Source: a virus. Taken from it: a stretch of DNA of 30,209 nucleotides. Below the pieces are notes generated by a model. The model saw nothing but the letters and a program-made list of their open reading frames with translations, was not told where the DNA came from and made no database searches. Positions 3,333 to 4,512 of the stretch are shown here, in pieces (the first letter of the stretch is position 1; every line of letters starts with the position of its first letter). The stretch spans positions 1 to 30,209 of the IMG/VR virus record IMGVR_UViG_3300006916_000228; one strand, given 5' to 3'. Made by a program: the position numbers and the translations under genes.

Positions 3333-4512
3333 GGTCGGTAGCCTGTTCTCAGGGATCGGAGGATTGGAGCTTGGCCTAGAGCGGGCAGGGATGGAGGTGG
3401 TGTTCCAAGCCGAATACGACAAACAAGCGCGTCGGGTGCTCGCGAGGCACTGGCCCGACGTCCACAGATACGAGGATGTGCATGATGTCAGGATTTCACG
3501 AGAACTTGTCCGCGAGCGTAACGACGGAGTCGATAGCGAAGGCTCTCCGCGCTGGCGCCAGCGCGAACTATCAAGGGGTGGTCCCCGGAATGGTGGAGGA
3601 CCGACAGCCAATGCCGGACCAGTTGACGTTATTTGCGGAGGATTCCCGTGCCAAGATTACAGCGTTGCAGGAAAGCGCGGCGGCTTGGCTGGAGACCGTG
3701 GCGCGCTCTGGTGGGAAATGCACCGGATCGTTGCTGAGCAGCGCCCCACGTGGGTTGTCGGAGAAAATGTGTCTGGCCTCCTCTCATCGAACGGAGGAGC
3801 CGACTTCCGTACCATCATCGCCTCGCTTGTACAACTCGGGTATGGCGTCACATGGGCTACTATGGACAGCCAATACTTCGGAGTGGCGCAACGACGGAGA
3901 CGCCTGTTCATTATCGGACATTCTGGAGGAGTCCCCAGACCCGAAATACTCGCTATCTCCGAGGGCTTGTTCGGGCATCCTGCGCCGAGCAGAGAAGAGG
4001 GGCCGGGTGCTGCCGAAGGCGTTGAGGCTCGCACTTACAGCAAGACAACAGCACAACCAGACTACGACAATTGGGACGCAGCAGCAGTGAACCGAACGCT
4101 ATCAACCTTCGAGAACGCGAGCGATGTGCGGGCGAGCACGATAGTCCTCGCAGGTGACGGTGCCAACGCAGAGATCACCACGGACTCGTCACCGGGGCTG
4201 GGTCCGACGCTGAAGGTGGGGTCCGGTATCGGGATTACCACGATCCCTCGCCGCCTCACCCCGAAAGAGTGCGAACGCCTACAAGGCTTCCCAGACGGTT
4301 GGACAGCACGATACGACGACGGGACAAAAGTAGCTGACGGCCCACGATATCGGATGCTCGGCAACGCGGTAACTGTGAGCGTGGCTGAATGGATCGGGAG
4401 ACGAATCATGCAAGCCGAGAAACAAGACAGGGCGCGGATAGGATTCGACGCTTCGCAAGACTCGCAAGAGAACGGAGCGGACCCCGGTTCGACTCTGGGC
4501 GCGTCCATGTAG
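3325..4512 (+). CDS. C5-cytosine DNA methyltransferase (Dcm family)
   Basis: A 395-residue m5C methyltransferase. Motifs in order: I FSGIGGLELGL (near 8-18), IV GGFPCQ with the catalytic Cys (near 105-110), VI ENV (near 146), VIII QRRRRLFII (near 188), IX RRLTPKECERLQGFP (near 309), X RMLGNAVTVSVAEWI (near 343). ATG 3325 has AAGAGG at 3310-3315 upstream; ATG 3316 would leave no spacing. About 35 low-complexity residues (Arg/Gly/Glu-rich) are inserted between the motif II/III region and motif IV. That insert contains a perfect 18-bp palindrome and the N-terminal part of a second gene in the +1 frame. The last 26 codons form a tmRNA-like element. The target-recognition region between VIII and IX is short and Gly/Pro/Glu-rich. 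Probable role: modification of phage DNA against host restriction. Confidence 0.9.
   Translation: MLRVGSLFSGIGGLELGLERAGMEVVFQAEYDKQARRVLARHWPDVHRYEDVHDVRISRELVRERNDGVDSEGSPRWRQRELSRGGPRNGGGPTANAGPVDVICGGFPCQDYSVAGKRGGLAGDRGALWWEMHRIVAEQRPTWVVGENVSGLLSSNGGADFRTIIASLVQLGYGVTWATMDSQYFGVAQRRRRLFIIGHSGGVPRPEILAISEGLFGHPAPSREEGPGAAEGVEARTYSKTTAQPDYDNWDAAAVNRTLSTFENASDVRASTIVLAGDGANAEITTDSSPGLGPTLKVGSGIGITTIPRRLTPKECERLQGFPDGWTARYDDGTKVADGPRYRMLGNAVTVSVAEWIGRRIMQAEKQDRARIGFDASQDSQENGADPGSTLGASM
3476..4090 (+). CDS. Overprinted protein in the +1 frame of dcm
   Basis: A 204-codon open frame lies wholly inside the cytosine methyltransferase gene, offset by +1. It does not read like a shadow frame: it has a DQLTLFAEDSRAKITALQES segment, a SLSDILEESPDPKYSLSPRA segment, then ACSGILRRAEKRGRVLP. 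From memory, phage proteins of unknown function near cytosine methyltransferases carry TLFAEDS at the N-terminus and SLSP-x-A-x-x-GILRRAEKRG-x-x-LP at the C-terminus. Starts are possible at 3476, 3590 or 3611; GGAGG at 3595-3599 precedes ATG 3611, and MPDQLTLFAEDS there would be a natural N-terminus (159 residues). It ends in TGA 4088-4090. No function is known to me. Two complete proteins on the same 480-615 bases would be a true overlapping gene pair. Confidence 0.65.
   Translation: MCMMSGFHENLSASVTTESIAKALRAGASANYQGVVPGMVEDRQPMPDQLTLFAEDSRAKITALQESAAAWLETVARSGGKCTGSLLSSAPRGLSEKMCLASSHRTEEPTSVPSSPRLYNSGMASHGLLWTANTSEWRNDGDACSLSDILEESPDPKYSLSPRACSGILRRAEKRGRVLPKALRLALTARQQHNQTTTIGTQQQ
3548..3565 (+). 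repeat. Perfect 18-bp palindrome inside dcm
   Basis: CGCGCTGGCGCCAGCGCG is its own reverse complement. As RNA it can form a 7-bp GC stem with a GCGC loop. It sits in the unusual insert of the methyltransferase gene, 25-46 bases before the likely internal starts (3590, 3611) of the overprinted frame, so it may influence internal initiation or act as a DNA-binding site. No role is proven. Confidence 0.6.
4430..4507 (+). ncRNA. tmRNA-like tRNA-like domain at the end of dcm
   Basis: A 78-nt element with the tRNA-like-domain layout of tmRNA. Acceptor stem GGGCGCG (4430-4436) pairs with CGCGTCC (4500-4506), 7 bp including a G3:U70 wobble; base 73 is A (4507). After four nucleotides comes GGATTCGAC (4441-4449), the tmRNA D-loop signature. 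P2-like stem GCTTCG (4450-4455) pairs with CGGAGC (4473-4478). GGAC (4479-4482) precedes T-stem CCCGG/CTGGG (4483-4487, 4495-4499) with loop TTCGACT. G3:U70 and A73 are alanine identity elements. The pseudoknots and the tag reading frame are absent, replaced by a 17-nt cap with CTC-GCAA-GAG. No CCA is encoded. It overlaps the last codons of dcm; transcription and aminoacylation are unproven. A chance or mimic origin, or an attachment-site remnant, is possible. Confidence 0.55.

Follow-up and report, generated by a model that had tools for sequence, protein, structure and literature searches.

A conserved +1 reading frame nested in phage C5-cytosine DNA methyltransferase genes very probably encodes an overprinted protein

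The window, meaning the whole 30,209-base virus record analysed here, carries a gene for a C5-cytosine DNA methyltransferase (dcm) at positions 3325-4512 of the plus strand, the strand of all dcm and P features described below. The 395-aa product matches PF00145 (E 9e-63) and TIGR00675 (E 4e-62), and its open reading frame (ORF) is open already from an ATG at 3298. Motifs I-VIII and the IX/X region were all found, among them the catalytic motif IV GGFPCQ (3637-3654), motif VI, with ENV inside 3760-3777, and motif VIII, with QRRRR starting at 3889. Positions 62-323 of the 324 in PF00145 are aligned, so that the match reaches the end of the domain. Around 3615-3677 the DNA is 82-89% identical to that of Brochothrix, Streptococcus, and Lactococcus phages. 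Just 5' of dcm lies a gene of 736 aa (904-3114) in which an SNF2-type helicase is fused to an N6/N4 DNA methyltransferase, a small ORF with weak matches to HNH-endonuclease PHROGs (3111-3332) overlaps the 5' end of the dcm ORF, and terminase and portal genes are located downstream.

Within dcm, and in the +1 frame relative to it, 204 codons remain open at 3476-4090, spanning dcm motifs IV, VI, and VIII. This overprinted gene, here called P, comprises 201 aa from its preferred start, ATG 3485 (3485-4090), or 204 aa from ATG 3476, and ends in a TGA stop (4088-4090). A Shine-Dalgarno-like GAGG (3472-3475) lies 9 nt 5' of ATG 3485, and the string GAGG-N9-ATG-TCA (3472-3490) aligns with the P starts of two close relatives (L015 and L016), both of which have an in-frame stop just 5' of the P start and lack an insert of about 40 codons that lengthens the N-terminus of P in the window. 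By this alignment ATG 3485 is probably the start. An alternative internal start, ATG 3611-3613 with GGAGG at 3595-3599, would give 159 aa beginning MPDQLTLFAEDS and containing the conserved part only. Over the bases of dcm motif IV the P frame reads EDSRAK. The motifs TLFAEDS (3626-3646), CSLSDILE (3905-3928), and YSLSPRACSGILRRAEKRG (3947-4003) follow one another along P, the last over the linker that joins dcm motif VIII to the target-recognition region (3943-4002) and that reads EILAISEGLFGHPAPSREEG in the dcm frame. The most conserved part of P (3905-4036), CSLSDILE...YSLSPRACSGILRRAEKRGxxLPxxLxxAL, is basic, and the last 61 residues have a pI of about 10. An earlier note, made from sequence alone, had reported the 204-codon frame, TLFAEDS near its start and SLSDILE near its end, and the presence of dcm motifs IV, VI, and VIII over the shared bases; all of this held, with the start now placed more probably at ATG 3485.

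A Pfam search of P recognised no domain, neither PF00145 nor HNH, and none of the 124 family members checked for PF00145 matched it. Comparison of the P family with PDB, Pfam, and NCBIfam gave no relative from which a function could be taken, the weak NCBIfam matches consisting of one or two members each. A tblastn search with P returned 174 phage records, and most of the 60 listed sit under a gene annotated as a methyltransferase. A P profile built from ten nested sequences was then run on viral contigs and bacterial genomes, and it detected loci in both. The register is the same +1 frame of dcm in 175/175 sequences found with P (a few of them near-identical), all 15 profile matches in eight whole genomes fall on C5-methyltransferase genes, although the weakest may be a dcm shadow, and the four plasmid matches examined are all nested in dcm. 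No free-standing copy of P occurs among the 175 sequences or the 15 matches in eight genomes; because the searches took the best matches first, rare free-standing copies are not excluded. The carriers are hundreds of distantly related phages and prophages, with hosts as unlike as Mycobacterium and Streptococcus.

The length of the open frame is in itself weak evidence, because about 5% of synonymous recodings of the window dcm remain open across the conserved region. On one reading the +1 frame is merely a passive by-product, or shadow, of the dcm motifs and codon use. In the recoding test the dcm protein and its codon use are kept while synonymous codons are drawn at random, with 40 recodings per locus. 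At 160 loci outside the training set of the P profile, the +1 frame scores a mean of 182 bits as observed vs 50 when recoded, and the observed score lies above all 40 recodings at every locus (160/160). The window itself scores 249 bits, with a mean of 77 and a maximum of 111 for its recodings; its sequence belongs to the training set, and the 160 sequences outside that set behave alike. Six recoded window products were also compared with PHROG profiles, where none matched phrog_1008 and one matched phrog_16143, merely at E 0.33. Recoding does leave shared ancestry in, yet the loci span phyla and base compositions.

Since the 160 loci had themselves been found through P, a second sample was drawn through the dcm frame alone. 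All 80 relatives in it match the P profile, at 49-271 bits. One scan, with the dcm frame of L188, likewise served as a sample picked regardless of the +1 frame. Seven of the 80 were tested by recoding (recoded means 26-90 bits), and every one except L280 beats all its recodings; the 49 bits of L280 are not above its own recodings. The homologous protein occupies the same register in 79/80, with one doubtful. The P frame of the 80 contains 43 stops vs 363.5 expected, and is wholly open in 49 loci vs 2.5 expected. Ten of these stops fall within the initial 15 residues and are each closely followed by a start-type residue, 22 fall in the last 25 residues, and the remaining 11 in the N-terminal quarter. 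The C-terminal core of P has no internal stops in the relatives, and its counterpart to 3905-4036 is open in all 80, natural ends aside. As a control, 14 P-less C5-methyltransferases were taken from the same bacterial genomes; their longest +1 frame averages 96 codons vs 106 when recoded. In favour of a shadow, recoded sequences keep about 50 bits, and some of the N-terminal similarity is therefore indeed of that kind. Against it stand the recoding scores, the absence of P from other C5-methyltransferases, and the constraint on fourfold sites and codon positions described next, and the shadow explanation is all but excluded.

Both frames are under constraint. At fourfold-degenerate third positions of dcm the entropy is 1.05 bits in the overlap vs 1.86 outside it (p = 2e-33), and between the window and a near relative (L003) 85% of fourfold sites are identical inside the overlap vs 42% outside. 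Fourfold sites outside the overlap are near random in distant pairs (21-27% identical where dcm identity is under 45%). Outside the overlap, single-base codon differences are distributed over dcm positions 1/2/3 as 12/6-8/79-82%, and from motif IV to motif VIII 71% of them still fall on position 3. In the overlap after motif VIII this signature is reversed, with 66/12/23% at positions 1/2/3, dcm position 1 being the wobble position of P. Because differences shift from dcm position 3 to the P wobble position past motif VIII, two zones of constraint can be distinguished. In one, the C-terminal part of P (CSLSDILE...ILRRAEKRG), constraint is stronger on the P frame and dcm follows, so that substitutions in the dcm linker at 3943-4002 track the P frame rather than the dcm frame; 5' of that part dcm dominates and P restricts its silent changes. 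A constraint on DNA or RNA, such as a structure or recombination site, and not on protein would account for the very high identity of motif IV DNA between phages of unrelated hosts. It is very unlikely, as stops in the P frame are strongly avoided and C-terminal substitutions are tolerated at the P wobble position. What is established for P is its homology, constraint, register, and start signals. That P is a real protein-coding gene is almost certain, its translation being inferred in the absence of ribosome-profiling or mass-spectrometry evidence.

These results bear on the remaining claims of the earlier note. Nesting, recoding, fourfold sites, stops, and starts give strong support to its central proposal, namely an overprinted protein that belongs to a conserved family, in a region where both frames are constrained. 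The statement that the product is not shadow-like held overall, with the reservation that TLFAEDS, taken by itself, is in part a shadow cast by dcm motif IV and that the C-terminal part gives the strongest signal. The impression that both frames look familiar at 3948-4030 is explained by the P frame being dominant there, with dcm following. The statement that free-standing phage proteins of this type lie near methyltransferases failed, since none was found and all copies found are nested in dcm; the proteins meant are probably that nested frame itself, carried in annotations instead of dcm. Three outcomes had been named as refuting the proposal. Stop codons in close relatives were not encountered in the C-terminal core, nor was an absence of reduced synonymous variation, which is strongly reduced in the overlap. 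The third, a lack of homologues outside dcm-embedded frames, was met, yet the core claim is still supported.

The signals expected of an independent start recur across loci. Of 170 loci, 109 have a P frame that opens no more than 10 codons from the conserved domain, and in 108 of these 109 a start codon follows the upstream in-frame stop (ATG in 70, TTG in 33, GTG in 5). A start codon together with a Shine-Dalgarno site is found in 86 loci, vs 21.3 +/- 4.0 expected from recoding. Ribosomes would thereby initiate P internally on the dcm mRNA, at a start codon and Shine-Dalgarno site belonging to P itself, a step with sequence support and no experiment behind it. Alternatively, P could be made as a fusion, with ribosomes starting at the dcm start and shifting +1 near the P start, stimulated by the AAGGAG-like site; Shine-Dalgarno-like sites just 5' of the P domain would suit such a role. 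The start codons placed after an upstream in-frame stop in 108/109 loci speak against this, and frameshifting is regarded as unlikely, although no systematic search for a slippery sequence was made.

The P frame is already known to databases. PHROG 16143 ('DNA methyltransferase', 139 positions) is matched by P of the window (E 6.5e-12, profile positions 14-129) and by 116 of 124 aligned P members, and the nested ORF of Streptococcus phage MM1 aligns with it along its entire length (E 5e-82). In MM1, orf13 and orf14 ('C5 methyltransferase alpha/beta subunit') have the same nested +1 layout, and the nested ORF, which the depositors named 'C5 methyltransferase beta subunit', encodes a protein homologous to P. 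The frame has thus been annotated in MM1 and is present in PHROGs under a borrowed label; the label was likely taken from the surrounding gene, P having no methyltransferase domain. The MM1 annotation concerns a single phage, and no statement on conservation or function was found in the open-access literature searched. Nor was a description of the overlap as a conserved overprinted family found there; subscription literature lay outside the search, and novelty is unproven.

Two other systems invite comparison. M.EcoHK31I is a C5-methyltransferase made of two polypeptides (PMC3404938). Its genes overlap in different frames. Two overlapping frames are present at the window locus, though translation of both has not been shown. 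The small subunit of M.EcoHK31I holds motif IX, whereas P has no PF00145 match and the window dcm matches PF00145 to its end. With the motif IX split lacking, P is not classed as of the M.EcoHK31I type. The ShiLan type, a hidden out-of-frame HNH endonuclease in a phage methylase gene (PMC11855218), resembles P in being an out-of-frame protein within such a gene. It is a homing insertion, however, whereas P lies over the conserved catalytic core and matches no HNH domain.

A role for P remains a matter of inference. The leading proposal is that P pairs with the methyltransferase of its own message, to which it would be a small, basic partner or a regulatory subunit produced at a constant ratio; it might, for instance, help with DNA binding or with the choice of targets as the phage shields its DNA from host restriction. 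This partner role is favoured because P is strictly linked to dcm and because the nested ORF of MM1 was annotated as a beta subunit. C5 enzymes made of two polypeptides, M.EcoHK31I among them, also provide a precedent. Against a need for a partner, the window dcm seems complete alone, its motif content calling for no second subunit. Whether P acts with its own methyltransferase could fall either way, and its biochemical role is inferred. A possible alternative is that P, though a real overprinted protein, acts separately from the methyltransferase whose message it shares, as an anti-restriction or host-takeover protein might. The evidence that P is real (recoding, synonymous constraint, codon positions) fits this equally well, dcm adjoins the gene for the helicase-N6/N4 methyltransferase fusion in what is plausibly an anti-restriction stretch, and dcm genes without P exist. 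An independent P should, however, at times occupy a locus of its own, and it does so in 0 of 175 sequences and 0 of 15 matches in eight genomes. The best explanation taken whole, a translated P that arose by overprinting, starts internally, and partners dcm, is as likely to fail in some part as to hold. Should P prove to be a methyltransferase partner, half the system has so far been missing from studies of phage orphan methyltransferases. Relatives of P are present in cultured phages (MM1, Caulobacter phage DMCA, mycobacteriophages, and, partly interrupted, P1) and the proposal is therefore directly testable.

P probably arose by overprinting on an existing dcm, an inferred direction that is the natural one because C5-methyltransferases are far more widespread than P, which occupies only part of the dcm tree. 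When 84 dcm proteins are arranged in a tree, some branches of which are long or weakly supported, the P label requires three changes and fits one gain and two losses. Some methyltransferases placed within or beside the P clade (L314, L322, L326) lack P, and P is therefore not universally needed. A second C5-methyltransferase lineage (viral contigs L190-L230, L183 1419-2514, and L188 1335-2463) also carries a long conserved +1-frame protein, of the PHROG 1008 type, with WPTP repeats and LNPAHSRWLMGFP, over almost the whole gene. The longest +1 frame of this lineage has a mean of 269 codons vs 138 when recoded, and the +2 frame is at chance. PHROG 1008 ('DNA methyltransferase', 329 positions) matches P weakly (E 4e-5) and is likewise a +1 frame of C5-methyltransferases; unlike P it covers nearly the entire dcm gene and has WPTP and WLMGFP motifs. 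It had been considered as a free-standing relative of P, and was rejected as such on being recognised as a second nested +1 frame. Profile-profile comparison of P with PHROG 1008 did not show homology, and in the dcm tree the PHROG 1008 lineage is separate from the P clade, with P-less genes between. The dcm of two viral contigs (L280 and L293) is near that of the window in the tree, with weak support, and the C-terminus of their +1 product is closer to the PHROG 1008 type; for L280 this product scores 52 bits on that type vs a recoded maximum of 20. These contigs are a possible bridge between the two +1 families, which may or may not share an origin.

A bolder reading is that an overprinted second protein was gained on the catalytic core of phage dcm at least once and, counting both P and the PHROG 1008 type, perhaps twice, and that a large class of phage 'orphan' methyltransferases are two-protein, two-frame systems whose second half was missed or mislabelled; the present evidence leaves this rather more open to doubt than to acceptance. 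The enzyme family whose catalytic motifs P overlies is well studied, and annotation usually retains one frame. To our knowledge, very few long genes overprinted on the same strand are conserved across bacterial phyla.

Several loci depart from the usual layout. The dmt gene of phage P1 (L344) and plasmids of Bifidobacterium (L349) and Euzebya (L350) have intein-like insertions at the motif IV catalytic Cys, which break the N-terminal part of P and leave its C-terminal core conserved; in L349 P may start within the insertion. In Streptococcus phage CHPC1042 (L346, 1371-1915) a large internal deletion of dcm has taken most of P as well. In seven further loci (L007, L244, L270, L273, L284, L290, L300) dcm is apparently split into ORFs between motif VIII and IX/X, and these carry P over the first dcm part.
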